Origin: a virus
DNA length: 42,189 bases
Virus record (IMG/VR): IMGVR_UViG_3300025674_000095
Coordinates: 1 to 42,189 of that record
Direction: 5' to 3' (one strand)
The notes below the pieces were generated by a model, which did not search any database, had not been told where the DNA came from, and saw only the letters and a list, made by a program, of their open reading frames with translations. Below, one piece after another: positions 1,838 to 29,700 of this stretch; within the stretch, counting starts at the first letter, position 1, and every line of letters begins with the position of its first letter. Both the position numbers and the translations under genes were made by a program.

Positions 1838-3744
1838 TGGCAGTATTTTCTCTTCAGGAAGTCAGGAAACTTCAGGTTCAGAATGTAAATGATGGGAATT
1901 TTGCCAGTTGGCCAGAAAGTGGGGCTTATGGTTACTTTGGTGGTGGATATAGTGCTTTTTCTCGTTCAACAATAGATCGTGTTGATTTCTCCAATGAAAC
2001 TATATCATTAACGGGAAATAATTTAATAACTGCATCATATCTTCTAGCAGGAACCTCAAATAATTCTTATGGTTACTTTGGTGGTGGATATAGTACTCCA
2101 CCAGCTACTCATTATTCAAAAGTAGAACGTATTGATTTCTCCAGTGAAACTATATCATTACCAGGTAATAATCTACCTGCAGTAAGGCATAGTTTAGCAG
2201 CAGTATCATCCACTTCTTATGGGTACTTTGGTGGTGGTATATCGAATCCAGTCACTCCAACTACTGTAGCAACAGTAGACCGCATTGATTTCTCCAATGA
2301 AACTATATCAGCACCAGGTAATAACTTACCTGAAGCAAGATCTCGTTTATCAGCAGTATCATCCACTTCTTATGGATACTTTGGTGGTGGTTATACACCA
2401 CCTTATGTTGCAACAATAGACCGTATTGATTTTACTACTGAAACTACATCAGCACCAGGTAATAACTTACCTGCAGCAAGAGATATGATGGGGGCAACTT
2501 CAAGTAGTTCTTATGGTTATTTTACTGGTGGAGGTCCTGGACCTGAACCATACTCATCAACATTAAACCGTATTGATTTCTCTAATGAAAGCATAGATTC
2601 AGCAATACCAACATTCCCTCCCCAGGCAAGAGAACGTTTAGCAGCAACTTCAAGTAGTTCTTATGGTTACTTTGGTGGTGGATTTCAAGTGGGACCTCGT
2701 AGTAATATTACTTTTGCTACCATGAACCGTCTCGATTTCTCCACTGAAACATTTTCACCATTTCCAGCAGTATACTATAGTTTATCTGTAGCAAGACATA
2801 GTTTAGCAGCACTCTCCGGTGGAGCATCATCTACTCGTGCAAATTATAATTCTTATGGATATTATGCTGGCGGCGCAGGTCCAGCTGGACCACCTTATGT
2901 AATTGCAACAGTAGACCGTATTGATTTCTCCAATGATGCTACATCAACACCAGGTAATAACTTACCTGTAGTAAGAAGTGAATCAGCAGCAGTATCAACC
3001 ACTTCTTATGGTTACTTTTCTGGTGGAGATAGAGATTTATCAAATGTGACTTCAACAACAGTCCGTATTAATTTCAATAGTGAGACTTTTACAGCATTAC
3101 CAGGTAGTAGTCTATCTGCAGCAAGAAACGGATTGGCAGCAGTCTCAAATAGTTCTTATGGTTTCTTTGCTGGTGGCGGCAGTTGGAGTGGTGGTACTCG
3201 AACTAGAACGTCAATAGTAGAACGTATTGATTTCTCCAATGAAACCGTGTCAACACCAGATAATGTTATATCACAAGAAAGAGATTATTTATCAGCAGTA
3301 TCATCTACTTCTTATGGATATTTTGGTGGTGGTTATACACCACCACCATCGGCTGTCTCGTCGGTAGCAACAGTAGACCGCATTGATTTATCCAATGAAA
3401 CTATATCAGCACCAGGTAATAACTTACCTGAAGCAAAAGCATGGAGCAGTGGACTCTCAAATAATTCTTATGGTTACTTTGGTGGTGGTAGTATTCCTTT
3501 TACTTCAAGAGTATATCGCATAGAGTTCTCTAATGAAACCTGGTCATTACCGGGTAATAATCTATCTGGAACAAGAAGAGGAGCAGCAGCAACCGCATCT
3601 GATTATCATGGTTACTTTGGTGGCGGAGTAGAATCGGGTGATGTTAGTACCGTTGACCGTTTAGATTTCTCCAATGAAACTTTGTCAACACCAAGCAATA
3701 AATTATCTGAAGAAAGAGATGCTATAATAGCAGTCACCAACTAA
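1837..3744 (+). CDS. Kelch-like repeat tail fibre protein
   Basis: 635 residues, made almost entirely of twelve repeats of about 50 residues. Each repeat begins with YGYFGGG or a close variant, continues with a variable loop, then a DRIDFSNETIS-like segment, PGNNLP, and an AR..LAAVSS-like helix or turn. This suits a Kelch-type beta-propeller or a stack of such blades. Variation is concentrated in the loop after GGG, where an adhesin would contact its receptor. Many repeats are close to identical in DNA sequence, so slippage or recombination is likely. The start codon overlaps the sulfotransferase stop by one base. A late-type promoter follows at 3747. The tail-fibre role is inferred. Confidence 0.75.
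   Translation: MAVFSLQEVRKLQVQNVNDGNFASWPESGAYGYFGGGYSAFSRSTIDRVDFSNETISLTGNNLITASYLLAGTSNNSYGYFGGGYSTPPATHYSKVERIDFSSETISLPGNNLPAVRHSLAAVSSTSYGYFGGGISNPVTPTTVATVDRIDFSNETISAPGNNLPEARSRLSAVSSTSYGYFGGGYTPPYVATIDRIDFTTETTSAPGNNLPAARDMMGATSSSSYGYFTGGGPGPEPYSSTLNRIDFSNESIDSAIPTFPPQARERLAATSSSSYGYFGGGFQVGPRSNITFATMNRLDFSTETFSPFPAVYYSLSVARHSLAALSGGASSTRANYNSYGYYAGGAGPAGPPYVIATVDRIDFSNDATSTPGNNLPVVRSESAAVSTTSYGYFSGGDRDLSNVTSTTVRINFNSETFTALPGSSLSAARNGLAAVSNSSYGFFAGGGSWSGGTRTRTSIVERIDFSNETVSTPDNVISQERDYLSAVSSTSYGYFGGGYTPPPSAVSSVATVDRIDLSNETISAPGNNLPEAKAWSSGLSNNSYGYFGGGSIPFTSRVYRIEFSNETWSLPGNNLSGTRRGAAATASDYHGYFGGGVESGDVSTVDRLDFSNETLSTPSNKLSEERDAIIAVTN
1912..3740 (+). repeat. Twelve tandem Kelch-like coding repeats (about 150 bp each)
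   Basis: The blocks TATGGTTACTTTGGTGGTGG, GTATTGATTTCTCCAATGAA and CCAGGTAATAACTTACCTG recur with few changes through the gene, separated by variable 10-60 base segments that encode the loop after each GGG. Conserved blocks around variable loops suggest that units can be shuffled by homologous recombination. Confidence 0.75.
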
Positions 3745-24298: not shown

Positions 24299-25078
24299 GT
24301 GCCATTCCCAATACAACCAAGCACAGCGAAAAGATTATTTGGAAATTTAGCACAATCTTCTCACTATGAAGTTAGATTTCAAATACCAAGTAGAGTAGTT
24401 TCATACTTGGCACGCCGTGGAGTGTCTCCATTTTACTGCATTAGTGATTTTGGTTTATTGTGCACATCTACAACACTACCAACGTCTGCATTTGCAACTT
24501 CTGAAGTAACTCCATATGTTGGCATTCGCGAAAAAATTGCCCACACTAGAATGTATAATAATATTGTAATGGAGTTTTATGTTGATAGTAGATATGATAC
24601 AATTAAAGTTTTAGAACACTGGATGGATTTTATTTCTAGTGGATCTGATAATGAGACTAATAAAATTAGAAGTGATTATTACATACGGATGCAATATCCA
24701 GATGATTATAAATCCACTGAAACTAAAATTATAAAATTTGATAGAGATTATAGACGTGAAATTGAATATACATTTAAAGGTATGTTCCCACAATCTCTCA
24801 CATCTATACCAGTTTCTTATGCTGGATCTGATGTTTTAAAAGTATCTGCTACATTTGAATATGATAGGTACATTGCTGGCAAAACAACTAGTCTGTCTCT
24901 TTTTAGAATGGAGAATGAAAATAAAGATCCTACAAATAGACCATCAAGAATACCAATGAATGCTGGACAATCCGGATTAACTGGAGTTGTTTATAGACCT
25001 GCTGATTTATCTCCAGCGGAAGCAATAGTTCAAGGTGAATTATACACCTCTTTAACTGGATCTCAAAAAGCAATCTAA
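24299..25078 (+). CDS. Tail tube/baseplate initiator-like protein (gp54-like)
   Basis: 259 residues from GTG 24299. STAKRLFGNLAQSSHYEVRFQIPSRVV, TTLPTSAFATSEVTPYVGIREKIAHTRMYNNIVMEFYVD and EHWMDFISSG show the gp19-like tail-tube fold shared by gp19, gp48 and gp54. The pattern of a P-S-F/A loop followed by YVG is typical. As gp48 is already present, the best call is a gp54-like tube initiator. Transcription probably starts at the late motif at 24257. Confidence 0.65.
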   Translation: MPFPIQPSTAKRLFGNLAQSSHYEVRFQIPSRVVSYLARRGVSPFYCISDFGLLCTSTTLPTSAFATSEVTPYVGIREKIAHTRMYNNIVMEFYVDSRYDTIKVLEHWMDFISSGSDNETNKIRSDYYIRMQYPDDYKSTETKIIKFDRDYRREIEYTFKGMFPQSLTSIPVSYAGSDVLKVSATFEYDRYIAGKTTSLSLFRMENENKDPTNRPSRIPMNAGQSGLTGVVYRPADLSPAEAIVQGELYTSLTGSQKAI

Positions 25079-25103: not shown

Positions 25104-25823
25104 ATGCCTTTACCAAAAGTATCTACGCCAACATATGAGTTGGAAATTCCTTCATTAAAAAAGAAAATTAAGTACAGACCATTTCTTGTCAAGGAAGAAA
25201 AAATACTAATCATTGCTATGGAAAGTGATGATCCTAAGCAAATTGCATCTGCTGTAAAGGATGTTATTGGAAATTGTATTCTGACAAGAGGAATTAAAGT
25301 TGATTCTCTTGCAACTTTTGATATTGAGTATCTGTTTTTAAATATTAGAGGTAAGTCTGTTGGTGAAACCGCAGATGTTTTAATTACATGTCCAGATGAT
25401 GGAAAAACACAAGTTCCCATGAGTATTGATCTGGATGATATTAAAGTTGAAGTTAGTGATGATCACACTAGAGATATTAAGTTGGATGATGACTTAAGTG
25501 TGCGAATGAGGTATCCATCCATGAATGAATTTATTAAAAATAATTTTACCAATAAATCTGATATTACCGTAGATGATACATTCTCTGTAATTTCTTCATG
25601 TATTGAACAAATTTACAATGAAGAGGAATCTTGGTCTGCAAAAGATTGCACTAAAAAAGAACTTGTTGAGTTTATTGAATCCTTGAGTTCAAAGCAGTTT
25701 AAACAGATTGAAAAGTTTTTTGATACCATGCCAAAGTTGAGGCATGTAATTAAAGTATTAAATCCAAATACTGGTGTTGAAAATGAAATAGTAATGGAGG
25801 GTTTAACGTCTTTTTTCGCCTAG
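25104..25823 (+). CDS. 26: Baseplate hub protein gp26 / tail assembly chaperone (frameshifted form likely)
   Basis: 239 residues. MPLPKVSTPTYELEIPS, FLVKEEKILIIAMESDD, CILTRGIKVDSLATFDIEYLFLNIRGKSVGE and LITCPDDG match the T4 gp26 family (about 207-241 residues), which also covers related tail chaperones. The last codons read TCT TTT TTC GCC TAG. T TTT TTC (25811-25817) is a -1 slippery heptamer, followed eight bases later by an 8-bp hairpin. A -1 shift adds 60 residues, giving about 298. This matches the lambda G/GT plan, with a probable tape measure gene next. Confidence 0.85.
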   Translation: MPLPKVSTPTYELEIPSLKKKIKYRPFLVKEEKILIIAMESDDPKQIASAVKDVIGNCILTRGIKVDSLATFDIEYLFLNIRGKSVGETADVLITCPDDGKTQVPMSIDLDDIKVEVSDDHTRDIKLDDDLSVRMRYPSMNEFIKNNFTNKSDITVDDTFSVISSCIEQIYNEEESWSAKDCTKKELVEFIESLSSKQFKQIEKFFDTMPKLRHVIKVLNPNTGVENEIVMEGLTSFFA

Positions 25824-25850
25824 CGATGACACATGAAAATCTTGTGTCAT
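25811..25850 (+). promoter_or_regulatory. Programmed -1 ribosomal frameshift signal
   Basis: Slippery T TTT TTC at 25811-25817, in phase with the gp26 frame. The spacer 25818-25825 holds the gp26 stop TAG. The hairpin is ATGACACA (25826-25833), a nine-base loop, TGTGTCAT (25843-25850), a perfect 8-bp stem. After a -1 shift, reading continues open from 25817 to the stop at 25997. The stem also covers the only ATG of the second frame. Confidence 0.7.
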
Positions 25851-25999
25851 ATTATAAAATAAATTTTTCCTTGATTCAGCACCATAAATATTCATTGACG
25901 GATTTAGAAAATATGATTCCTTGGGAAAGGGAAATATATGTTTCTCTACTTCAACAATATATTGAAGAAGAAAATCTAAAGAACGGTAATGGCACCTAA
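25826..25999 (+). CDS. Small second-frame chaperone extension (frameshift product domain)
   Basis: 57 residues if started at ATG 25826; 60 added residues if read by -1 frameshift from gp26. It reads MTHENLVSYYKINF, then HHKYSLTDLENMIPWEREIYVSLL and QQYIEEENLK: a helical unit with an L-x2-M-x-PWE core, like the T part of tail chaperones that follow the first gene in many phages. The hairpin hides its ATG, so shifted translation is the likelier route. It overlaps the next gene by 11 bases. A link to T4 gp51 is possible only by position. Confidence 0.65.
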   Translation: MTHENLVSYYKINFSLIQHHKYSLTDLENMIPWEREIYVSLLQQYIEEENLKNGNGT

Positions 26000-27791
26000 T
26001 AACCCTCTACTTTCAAGTTCACCACTAAATCAACAATCCAGACAAGGTATTGTTGGATCTGGTGGTGCAGGATTTCAGGGAGTAGGTGCATCGGCAGCAG
26101 GATTTGTAACTCCTCAATCAACTGTAAGTGCTGAAGATATCAAAACTCTGCAAGTAACTGAGCAGAATCAAGAAATTTTAAATGGAATTAATTTTGGTTT
26201 AAATGGAGTTAGGCAAGATATTAATTCTTTAAATAATGGTTTAGTTGAAATATCGACATTAATACAAAACGATGCCGCTAGTGAACAAAGATTCTTACTA
26301 AATGAACAGGAAAGAGAAAGAATATTATCTGAACAAGAAGTAAGAACTGGAAAAGAAAGTGTAATTGAGAAAAAGATTGATTCTGCATTTAGTTCAGCAG
26401 CTTCTAGGGTATCTACTAAAGTTAGAAGTTTATTTGATAGAGTCGGTCAGGCTATTCTTTATCTTTTTGGTGGTTGGATAGCAACTAAGTATGCCGAATT
26501 ACTAGAAGCAGAAGGTAAAGATAATGTAGATTTAGTCCAACAAATAAAATCGCAAATTGCTGAGGGATCTAAAAGTTTCCTTAATTCATTTATATTACTT
26601 GGTGGTGGATTTTCAAAAGTAATTAGTAAAATTCTTAGTCTTGGTAAAAATATAGGGTCGTTTTTACTTAAAAAACCTTTTGAAGCTTTGTGGAACTTAG
26701 GATCATCAATTACTAGTAGATTTACTGGAAATAGGAGTTCTAATACTCCACCACCTTCTACACCAGGAGGACCAAAACCACAAGGTCCTAAATCTGGGGG
26801 ACCTAAGATTTCAGGTGGATTTGGAACTGCTCTTTCTGCAGGTGCGGAGGCTTTAACTGGTAATTATGTAGAGGCAGGTCTTGGTGCAGCAGCATTTATT
26901 CCTGGTTGGCCAGGAAAAATTGCTAAGGTTGCTTTTTGGGGTGAACAAGTACTTGATATGTTTGGGAAGGGATTTTTAGGAAATGAATCTGAAAACCCCA
27001 AAAAAGAATCAGAAGAACCTGCCATGATGGTTAAACCTGATACTGCAGGTGGTGAAGTTAAAGTGGAAGCAAATCCCACTAAACCTGATACTGCAGGTGG
27101 TGAAGTTAAAGTGGAAGCAAATCCCACTAAACCTGATACTGCAGGTGGTGAAGTTAAAGTGGAAGCAAATCCTGCTAAAGCAGATTTTAAAGAATTAAAG
27201 GAGGATGATAAAGAAGAACGTTCTAGTAGTACTCCCTCCACAATTAATACTAGTGCTTTATTTAATAAAGACGATTCTGAAAAAGGAACTATATTTGGAT
27301 TTGATACAAAATCACTATTTTCTTCATCGTCAAGTGATTCTTCACAATCGTCCACAGAAAAAGCATCAGTAGAACCTCAAGAAAAAGCATCAGTAGAACC
27401 TCAAGAAAAAGCATCAGTAGAACCTCAAGAAAAAGCACTTCCAAATGTAGGTGCATCTGAACAAAGTTCTCCAGAAATGAATACACAGGAAGATCCTGAT
27501 TCATCTGATGCTGCACGATATATTGAGGCGGAAAAAAATATAAATGCTCCTCCAGTTGTTGCAAGTTCCGAAAATGTGCAAGCACCACCAAAAGAAGTAA
27601 ATCCTTTACCTGAATTAAAAGAACCACCAGTTCAGGTAGTAAGTATGAATTCTGGTGGATCACAAAGTCCAATGCCAGTTAGTATTCCTGGATCTAATGA
27701 GTCAATAACAGATATTCCTTTGATTTCATCTTCAAATCCAGAAAACTTCTATACATTATATTCATTGCATTCTTATAATGTGGTAGTATAA
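25989..27791 (+). CDS. Probable tail tape measure protein (gp29-like position)
   Basis: 600 residues, close to T4 gp29 (590). Residues about 45-135 are a coiled-coil-like helical region (EDIKTLQVTEQNQEIL, NEQERERILSEQE). A hydrophobic stretch follows at about 150-240 (AILYLFGGWIATKY, SFILLGGGFSKVISKILSL). The second half is low complexity, with three 16-residue repeats (KPDTAGGEVKVEANPT) and three 8-residue repeats (EKASVEPQ). Its place after the frameshift chaperone is where tape measure genes sit. There is weak similarity to the hub protein at 27793 in the GW-x3-KY segment. A hub protein is the alternative. Confidence 0.5.
   Translation: MAPNNPLLSSSPLNQQSRQGIVGSGGAGFQGVGASAAGFVTPQSTVSAEDIKTLQVTEQNQEILNGINFGLNGVRQDINSLNNGLVEISTLIQNDAASEQRFLLNEQERERILSEQEVRTGKESVIEKKIDSAFSSAASRVSTKVRSLFDRVGQAILYLFGGWIATKYAELLEAEGKDNVDLVQQIKSQIAEGSKSFLNSFILLGGGFSKVISKILSLGKNIGSFLLKKPFEALWNLGSSITSRFTGNRSSNTPPPSTPGGPKPQGPKSGGPKISGGFGTALSAGAEALTGNYVEAGLGAAAFIPGWPGKIAKVAFWGEQVLDMFGKGFLGNESENPKKESEEPAMMVKPDTAGGEVKVEANPTKPDTAGGEVKVEANPTKPDTAGGEVKVEANPAKADFKELKEDDKEERSSSTPSTINTSALFNKDDSEKGTIFGFDTKSLFSSSSSDSSQSSTEKASVEPQEKASVEPQEKASVEPQEKALPNVGASEQSSPEMNTQEDPDSSDAARYIEAEKNINAPPVVASSENVQAPPKEVNPLPELKEPPVQVVSMNSGGSQSPMPVSIPGSNESITDIPLISSSNPENFYTLYSLHSYNVVV
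27033..27176 (+). repeat. Three 48-bp tandem coding repeats
   Basis: Units at 27033-27080, 27081-27128 and 27129-27176, nearly identical in DNA; only the last few bases of the third differ. Each encodes KPDTAGGEVKVEANPT or, at the end of the third, NPA. Whole-codon units can expand or contract without breaking the frame. Confidence 0.85.
27357..27428 (+). repeat. Three 24-bp tandem coding repeats
   Basis: Units at 27357-27380, 27381-27404 and 27405-27428 encode EKASVEPQ each; a partial fourth (EKA) follows. They are identical at DNA level, which points to recent slippage. Confidence 0.85.
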
Positions 27792-27792
27792 T

Positions 27793-29700
27793 ATGGCAGA
27801 ATCTTCAACAGTATCGGCAACAATTAGACAACAATCCAGTATTGGTAATATAAGATCTTCTATTGGGGGGATCGGTTCTTCTACATCTCAGGTAGAAACT
27901 ACGATTGGATCAATTAAATCATCATTGCAAAATAAAACCAAAACTAGAGATGCAATTATAAAAAGAACTCAGTTTTTGAAATTTAGAAGAGATGAGCAAA
28001 AAATAAGGGGAGAAAAAGAAGCACAAATTGAAGCATCTGGGGTTAAATCTGGAGTACCAATTCCTGGTGCAAAAACAATCCAAAGTGTTGGAGGTAGTTT
28101 TTTAGACAGAATATTAAAATTTATAGGTTGGACTGCACTAGGATGGTTAGTTGAAAACTATCCTACTTGGGAAGCAATGGGTAGAGATTTTATAATTAGA
28201 GTAGATAAATTGAGAGATGCTTTACAAAGAATTCCTGGACAAATATTATCAATTTATAGAAGTTTTGGAAAAGTATTGACTGCATATAAAGATAATCTTT
28301 TTTCACTTGATTTATTTGATTCATCAAAAAGAGTTTATGAAGCAACTGAGGAATTGGGAGCGAATTGGGATGCACTGACACAATCGTTCCAAGATGCTAC
28401 AGGAGCATTTACAGAACCGACAGGTGTTGATATTCCCTCAACTGATGAAACAGTAGAAGAAACTGAACAACGGATAAGTGAAGGTGGAACTCCTCAGTAT
28501 ACATCTGAGGGTGGAGAAAAAATAATTGATCCTGGTGGTGCAGATTATGGAGAATATATACCAGGTGCTGAGGGATCAAGAGGTAAGGCTCGTGTTCATG
28601 GTGCTGATGGAAGAACAAGAGGTCATACTGGTGAAGATTATGCAATGCCTATTGGAACACCATTAACACTATTAATGGGTGGTAAAGTGGTTGATGTTGA
28701 AACAAATGTCTCTAAAGGTGGTGGATATGGTAAATTTGTTGTAGTTCAATTAGAGAATGGTAATTATATAAAATTAGCACACTTAAATTCCGTAAATGTT
28801 AGAGTTGGAGAAGAGGTTGGTGCTGGAACTGGTCCAAATGGAACTGCAAAAGTTCTTGGATTTAGTGGAGATACTGGATTGTCAAGTGGTCCTCACTTAC
28901 ACTTAGATTACTCTACTGGTTATGATCCATCCACTGCCGCTGTATCTGGAACTATGAATCCAGCATCACTAATTAATAGTGGAGCTCTTGTAAAAGGAAA
29001 AGACGTAAAGAAAGTAAAGACTAGTCAACCTGCACCCCCACCACCACCAACATCACAACCACAACAAACAATGATGGGTCAACCAACACCAAAAGGTGGA
29101 AAATTATCGATGAAACAATTGGTTAATGTGGCAAGACAAGCTGGTTTTACTGAAGAAAATGCGATTATTGCTGCTGCAATTGCAATGGGAGAATCTGGAG
29201 GTAAGAGTGACTCACACAATACAAAATATCCAGATAATTCATATGGTCTTTGGCAAATTAATATGTTGGATGAACCTGGATATATGCTTGGTGAAGAGAG
29301 GAGGAAAAAATTTGGATTAAAATCAAACAAAGATTTGTTTGATCCACTAACTAATGCCAAAGCAGCATTTGCAATTTCTGGTGGATCTAAATTTGGAGCC
29401 TGGTCGGTTTTTTCGCAAGGAATATATAAAGATTATCTACCTGAAGCAAGAAAAGCAGCATCTTCTCCACAGATGACTTCAGCAAAAGCATCTTCCCAAT
29501 CTTCAATGGATAGAAGTATTACTCCAGATAGAAGAGGTAAGACAGTCGTTGTTGATAGTGGGGGTGGTGGTGGAGCACCACAAATGCCCCAATCATCTGC
29601 AGGTAAATCCAAAGACAGTGGTGGAAGAGAACAAAACTTCCTATCTATGTTAAATAACTTTATGAAACAAAAACTAATGCTCGACCTAAGTTACCTATAA
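27793..29700 (+). CDS. Baseplate hub protein with M23 peptidase and lysozyme-like domains
   Basis: 635 residues. N-terminal part: a helical region with an amphipathic segment (FLDRILKFIGWTALGWLVENYPTW). Middle: an M23 metallopeptidase domain with H277 in GHTGEDYAM (H-x3-D) and H368-L-H370 in GPHLHLDY, expected to bind zinc and cut peptide cross-links of peptidoglycan. C-terminal: a lysozyme/transglycosylase-like domain with E467 in MGESGG and YGLWQINM. It likely opens the cell wall during infection. This arrangement replaces the lysozyme that T4 keeps in gp5. The proline-rich stretch at about 415-430 is a linker. Confidence 0.75.
   Translation: MAESSTVSATIRQQSSIGNIRSSIGGIGSSTSQVETTIGSIKSSLQNKTKTRDAIIKRTQFLKFRRDEQKIRGEKEAQIEASGVKSGVPIPGAKTIQSVGGSFLDRILKFIGWTALGWLVENYPTWEAMGRDFIIRVDKLRDALQRIPGQILSIYRSFGKVLTAYKDNLFSLDLFDSSKRVYEATEELGANWDALTQSFQDATGAFTEPTGVDIPSTDETVEETEQRISEGGTPQYTSEGGEKIIDPGGADYGEYIPGAEGSRGKARVHGADGRTRGHTGEDYAMPIGTPLTLLMGGKVVDVETNVSKGGGYGKFVVVQLENGNYIKLAHLNSVNVRVGEEVGAGTGPNGTAKVLGFSGDTGLSSGPHLHLDYSTGYDPSTAAVSGTMNPASLINSGALVKGKDVKKVKTSQPAPPPPPTSQPQQTMMGQPTPKGGKLSMKQLVNVARQAGFTEENAIIAAAIAMGESGGKSDSHNTKYPDNSYGLWQINMLDEPGYMLGEERRKKFGLKSNKDLFDPLTNAKAAFAISGGSKFGAWSVFSQGIYKDYLPEARKAASSPQMTSAKASSQSSMDRSITPDRRGKTVVVDSGGGGGAPQMPQSSAGKSKDSGGREQNFLSMLNNFMKQKLMLDLSYL

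Follow-up and report, generated by a model that had tools for sequence, protein, structure and literature searches.

A conserved slippery heptamer at the end of gp26 in a T4-related cyanobacterial virus points to a tail assembly chaperone pair made by -1 frameshifting

The gp26 junction and its neighbouring genes

The stretch of DNA analyzed here (the window) comprises 42,189 nucleotides, positions 1 to 42,189 of the IMG/VR virus record IMGVR_UViG_3300025674_000095. On its plus strand, gp26 is followed by a short open frame in the -1 phase, and the two lie between a tail tube-type gene and a long open reading frame. The features of this region are as follows:

24299-25078, plus strand: upstream neighbour, tail tube-type protein (PF23849 Phage_TTP_2, E 2.1e-15; phrog_45 tail tube, E 1.9e-39)
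25104-25823, plus strand: gp26, putative short tail assembly chaperone (TAC-N), 239 aa, T4_baseplate family PF12322 (E 3.7e-74; phrog_150, E 1e-79)
25796-25801, plus strand: Shine-Dalgarno-like GGAGGG, 9 nt 5' of the heptamer, possible 5' stimulator (SD match in homologous junctions)
25811-25817, plus strand: slippery heptamer T TTT TTC, in X XXY YYZ phase with gp26 (direct sequence read)
25818-25825, plus strand: spacer of 8 nt from heptamer to stem, containing the gp26 stop (direct sequence read)
25821-25823, plus strand: gp26 zero-frame stop TAG, inside the spacer (direct sequence read)
25826-25850, plus strand: putative stimulatory hairpin with a perfect 8-bp stem and a 9-nt loop (fold z -3.2; compensatory changes)
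25817-25999, plus strand: -1 frame extension (gp51 in the annotation of relatives), putative TAC-C domain, 60 aa after the slip (phrog_634, C-terminal part of phrog_150, conserved FF-R-[ILV]-x-[ML])
25989-27791, plus strand: downstream neighbour, ORF of 600 aa, of which 11 nt overlap the extension; its position makes it a candidate for the tape measure protein

The final codons of gp26 read TCT TTT TTC GCC TAG, and the hairpin arms lie at 25826-25833 (ATGACACA) and 25843-25850 (TGTGTCAT). After a slip of one base the first codon would be CGC (25817-25819), and no stop interrupts the -1 frame before 25997-25999, giving a predicted fusion of 238 aa plus 60 aa, or 298 aa. A sequence-only reading had described the in-phase heptamer, an 8-base spacer holding the gp26 stop, a perfect 8-bp hairpin and an open -1 frame yielding a fusion of about 298 residues, and direct inspection confirmed this anatomy almost to the base. 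It had also placed the hairpin over the only ATG of that frame; the stem does contain ATG 25826, but a second ATG lies at 25913, inside the conserved domain.

The 600-aa ORF is related to P-SSM2 PSSM2_016, gave no informative family match in profile searches and did not match T4 gp29 in sequence comparison; it is a tape measure candidate solely by its position. This ORF carries two near-perfect tandem repeats, one at 27032-27179 (a 48-nt unit in 3.1 copies, KPDTAGGEVKVEANPT) and one at 27356-27437 (a 24-nt unit in 3.4 copies). Directly after it, positions 27793-29700 hold a 635-aa ORF with Peptidase_M23 and SLT lysozyme-like domains. In cyanophage S-CREM2, a relative of the window's phage, two ORFs occupy the same position (gp208 and gp209, annotated as endolysins), and their products are abundant in virions.

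Conservation of the heptamer and of the -1 frame

The heptamer alone proves nothing, because TTTTTTC is common in the AT-rich window, where 38 copies were observed against 24 expected, and its count was rejected as evidence. Conservation was assessed among 265 readable relatives (viral contigs and named phages), which gave 172 distinct junctions; as these sequences are related by descent, the counts are not numbers of independent events. The in-phase T TTT TT[C/A] is kept in 166 of the 172 junctions, as TTTTTTC in 159 and in 7 as TTTTTTA, which puts Leu in place of the second Phe and is still slippery. The distance from heptamer to stop is 10 nt in 157 of these junctions and 7 nt in the other 9. 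An in-phase heptamer was also found in Vibrio KVP40, Stenotrophomonas YB07, Aeromonas 65, PX29 and phiAS5. The sequence-only reading had held heptamer-less homologues to speak against frameshifting; such homologues do exist (Vibrio D509 and K452, Pseudomonas Cygsa01), yet the heptamer is the rule among the junctions counted above.

Codon usage separates the site from the rest of the gene, with Phe-Phe written TTT-TTC in 159 of 166 cases at the junction versus 18 of 171 elsewhere in gp26. The homologue alignment that the sequence-only reading had proposed as a check came out in its favour: Phe237 is TTT and Phe238 is TTC in 49 of 49 same-length homologues while ten other conserved Phe codons all vary, and the stem is either kept by compensation or replaced.

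In the -1 frame, the residues FF-R-[ILV]-x-[ML] are conserved from the heptamer to the position of the ATG. A -1-frame stop lies immediately 5' of the heptamer, touching it, in 40 of the 166 heptamer junctions, and therefore the shift must occur at the heptamer. Moreover, in 41 of the 166 the -1 frame offers no ATG, GTG or TTG over a distance of 12 codons, which means that an intact extension cannot be made there by separate initiation. These junctions speak against the view that the extension is a small gene of its own (gp51), started at ATG 25826 by termination-reinitiation after the gp26 stop. That view matches the annotation of P-SSM2, S-PM2 and most relatives; the ATG stands 2 nt past the gp26 stop, and the three heptamer-less phages named above show TAATG overlaps. 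Against it, ATG 25826 is buried in the stem with no ribosome site preceding it, the heptamer codons are invariant, and T4 gp51 has the extension fused to a gp26-like domain, and we regard a separate gene as most unlikely. Some independent initiation of the extension at ATG 25826 could still occur.

The same -1 frame would result without any ribosomal slippage if RNA polymerase slipped at the T run and added one T to the mRNA, and six consecutive T are present in nearly all members. However, the run keeps to exactly six T with C or A after it and does not grow longer, and the compensated stem downstream fits ribosomal frameshifting, so that the polymerase explanation appears extremely improbable. 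As far as sequence comparison can speak, the frameshift signal stands far beyond chance, and its conservation settles the question. The earlier proposal that a -1 frameshift joins gp26 to the extension is upheld in this sense by the heptamer, the stem, the abutting -1 stops, the start-less extensions and the conserved -1-frame residues.

Candidate stimulators and a proposed mechanism

Folding of the 53-nt segment 25818-25870 gives -10.5 kcal/mol (z = -3.2), a value that 0 of 200 shuffles matched, and the 8-nt spacer puts the 8-bp stem within the distance of about 5-9 nt expected for the downstream structure of programmed -1 sites. Covariation was analyzed in the clade sharing the window's junction geometry (54 sequences); a combined MAFFT alignment of gp26 and extension pieces misplaced the extensions and was left out of the structure analysis. 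In this clade 88% of the stem cells are paired, and the stem covariation score is 0.159 versus 0.092 in shuffles (0 of 500 as high) and 0.018-0.061 for slid versions of the stem. One stem pair is G-C in 26 sequences and U-A in 24, and sequences of the window's type have A-U. In this pair the 5' base falls on a third codon position, and changes of the 3' base alter the residue (Ala, Glu or Val). On the best tree, built from upstream coding sequence, the two sides of this pair change at least 12 and 10 times, and three pair switches on strongly supported branches are concordant on both sides, a number too small for significance when taken alone. The S-PM2, P-HM1 and S-H34 clades carry a stem of unrelated sequence at similar spacing.

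Upstream of the heptamer, an SD-like match of at least 4 nt occurs at the site of GGAGGG in 154 of the 166 homologous junctions, versus a background of about 16%, and the Glu codon at this site favours GAG over GAA (odds ratio 3.8). The signal is suggestive rather than firm because the peptide LEGL, conserved at the same place, partly explains it.

Based on these comparisons, the locus very probably encodes, by way of -1 frameshifting, a pair of tail assembly chaperones of the kind known from lambda G/GT. Slippage, and its rate as a minority event, are what we infer from the conserved signal: most ribosomes would stop at the gp26 stop and release TAC-N of 239 aa, and a minority would shift back by one base on T TTT TTC to make the 298-aa fusion, TAC-NC, which would carry the 60-aa helical domain. 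The hairpin 8 nt downstream would aid the slip, as possibly would the SD-like GGAGGG 9 nt upstream. If the pair works as in lambda, TAC-N would coat the tape measure protein and TAC-NC would recruit tail tube subunits, and both would leave before the tail is completed. The stop-abutting and start-less junctions offer clean reporter targets.

The slippery heptamer of lambda G/GT is GGGAAAG. The window's heptamer differs from it, and in the window's pair the N domain is longer (239 aa) and the C domain short (60 aa); the two systems are likened here by analogy. Lambda gpG/gpGT is the prototype of tail chaperone pairs made by frameshift (Levin 1993; Xu 2004, 2013, 2014; reviewed in PMC5009743).

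Relation to T4 gp26 and gp51 and to other arrangements

The window's gp26 scores 249.5 bits against the PF12322 profile, whose curated cut-off is 24.5, and the extension matches phrog_634 (E 7.8e-27) and the C-terminal part of phrog_150 (E 2.8e-7). Both T4 gp26 (208 aa) and T4 gp51 (249 aa) match PF12322 over its full length and match each other (hhalign 98.9%), and only gp51 runs on into the extension domain. By these profile comparisons, T4 gp26 and gp51 are paralogues, gp26 being the counterpart of the short chaperone form and gp51 of the long one, so that T4 has the two forms as two divergent genes.

According to a 2016 review, the tail chaperone frameshift is conserved in long-tailed phages, with T4 as the exception (PMC5009743), and in a 2010 comparison, cyanophage and vibriophage gp51 lacked the first ~200 residues, for which no explanation was offered (PMC3037559). 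Frameshifting would account for both. In three Aeromonas phages (65, PX29 and phiAS5), T TTT TTC leads into the extension with no close in-frame ATG, GTG or TTG; the extension is left unannotated in phage 65 and annotated in truncated form in phiAS5. Aeh1 was reported in 2010 without gp51, and with its Aeromonas relatives PX29 and phiAS5 standing in for it, this absence is probably explained by the frameshift as well. In many public cyanophage records the pair is annotated as two baseplate genes, or the extension is missed, and re-annotation is possible.

On a rival view, gp26 would be a structural subunit of the baseplate hub, as in the long-standing T4 annotation, and the extension would be unrelated to tail length control. 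A T4 review refers to an older genetic study that assigned gp26 to the hub, and itself counts both gp26 and gp51 among the hub assembly chaperones; it describes gp51 as an essential protein that is missing from the particle and whose function is unknown (PMC3004832). Neither T4 gp26 nor T4 gp51 has a counterpart among the PDB chains, although gp27 occurs in seven entries, T4 baseplate structures included. A PDB sequence search with the gp26 and extension profiles returned only chance matches to helical or zinc-finger proteins. S-CREM2 carries the same heptamer, and its gp206 (gp26) and gp207 (extension) were undetected in the published virion proteome, in which gp203, gp204, gp208 and gp209 were detected, the missing peptides of such small proteins being weak evidence. 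Together with the chaperone identification by Vladimirov et al. 2022, these observations render the hub-subunit view very unlikely. The tail-chaperone reading of gp26 and its extension, as the sequence-only reading had proposed it, is by comparison well supported, through the T4 paralogy, the PDB result and the S-CREM2 proteome.

The AlphaFold model of gp26 is confident (pLDDT 88) and has no significant fold match in the PDB. Among its PDB matches, the HK97 tail assembly chaperone 2ob9 has the highest probability (0.60; 62 columns aligned at an rmsd of 2.7 A), but with E 1.7 it is not significant, and the modelled likeness is only suggestive. The extension is predicted to be helical with moderate confidence (pLDDT 76).

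A frameshifted chaperone pair is not a new principle, because the lambda G/GT prototype and the work of Vladimirov, Gautam and Davidson (Virology 2022, 566:9-15) precede it. As far as the papers citing that work report it, tail chaperone genes of T4-like phages were identified there (PMC10885494, PMC12846349), these phages carry one short and one fused long gene (PMC10885494), and TAC-N genes of T4-like phages are credited with poly-T slippery sites (PMC12846349). As cited in this way, the proteins of T4 genes 26 and 51, homologous to the window's pair, receive the same short and long interpretation. T4 differs from the window in keeping the two forms as separate divergent genes, where the window has one gene and a frameshift. 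Frameshifting is reportedly described as conserved in several T4-like groups in the abstract of Vladimirov et al. 2022. The passages of PMC12846349 dealing with Pseudomonas phage Adele and the Andersonviridae describe a GTTTTT motif, like the window's site a conserved poly-T -1 site ending TAC-N, with an extension mis-annotated as a separate gene, as in the window's relatives; that is a different phage family, and a conserved downstream stem is not mentioned in those passages. New here are the scale of the conservation, the compensation and replacement of the stem, the abutting -1 stops, the start-less extensions, the TTTTTTA variants, and the lineages in which a TAATG overlap or an in-frame fusion occurs.

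Frameshifting is not universal, because Vibrio D509 and K452 and Pseudomonas Cygsa01 have lost the heptamer. Their extension begins where stop and start codon overlap (TAATG), which suggests that reinitiation replaces frameshifting in these three phages. In the record IMGVR_UViG_3300049043_000112 (L027), gp26 and the extension form an in-frame fusion of 297 aa (2501-3391) with a loss of 2 nt across the heptamer. No second copy was found in this 236-kb record; the fusion is seen in a single contig and may be an assembly error. Another contig (L272) was considered as a second carrier of the fusion motif and rejected as a chance match in an unrelated frame.

We put forward tentatively, as a possibility that we do not favour, that frameshifting is ancestral in the T4 superfamily and was replaced several times, by a two-gene duplication in T4, by the stop-start overlap in D509, K452 and Cygsa01, and by the in-frame fusion in L027. 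If true, the family would show, as a natural experiment, how strictly the short:long ratio has to be kept. The T4 branch of this scenario is published, and the other branches are not known to us to have been described. Sinorhizobium phiN3 has a variant run, T TTT TTT, beginning 13 nt before the stop, in place of T TTT TTC.
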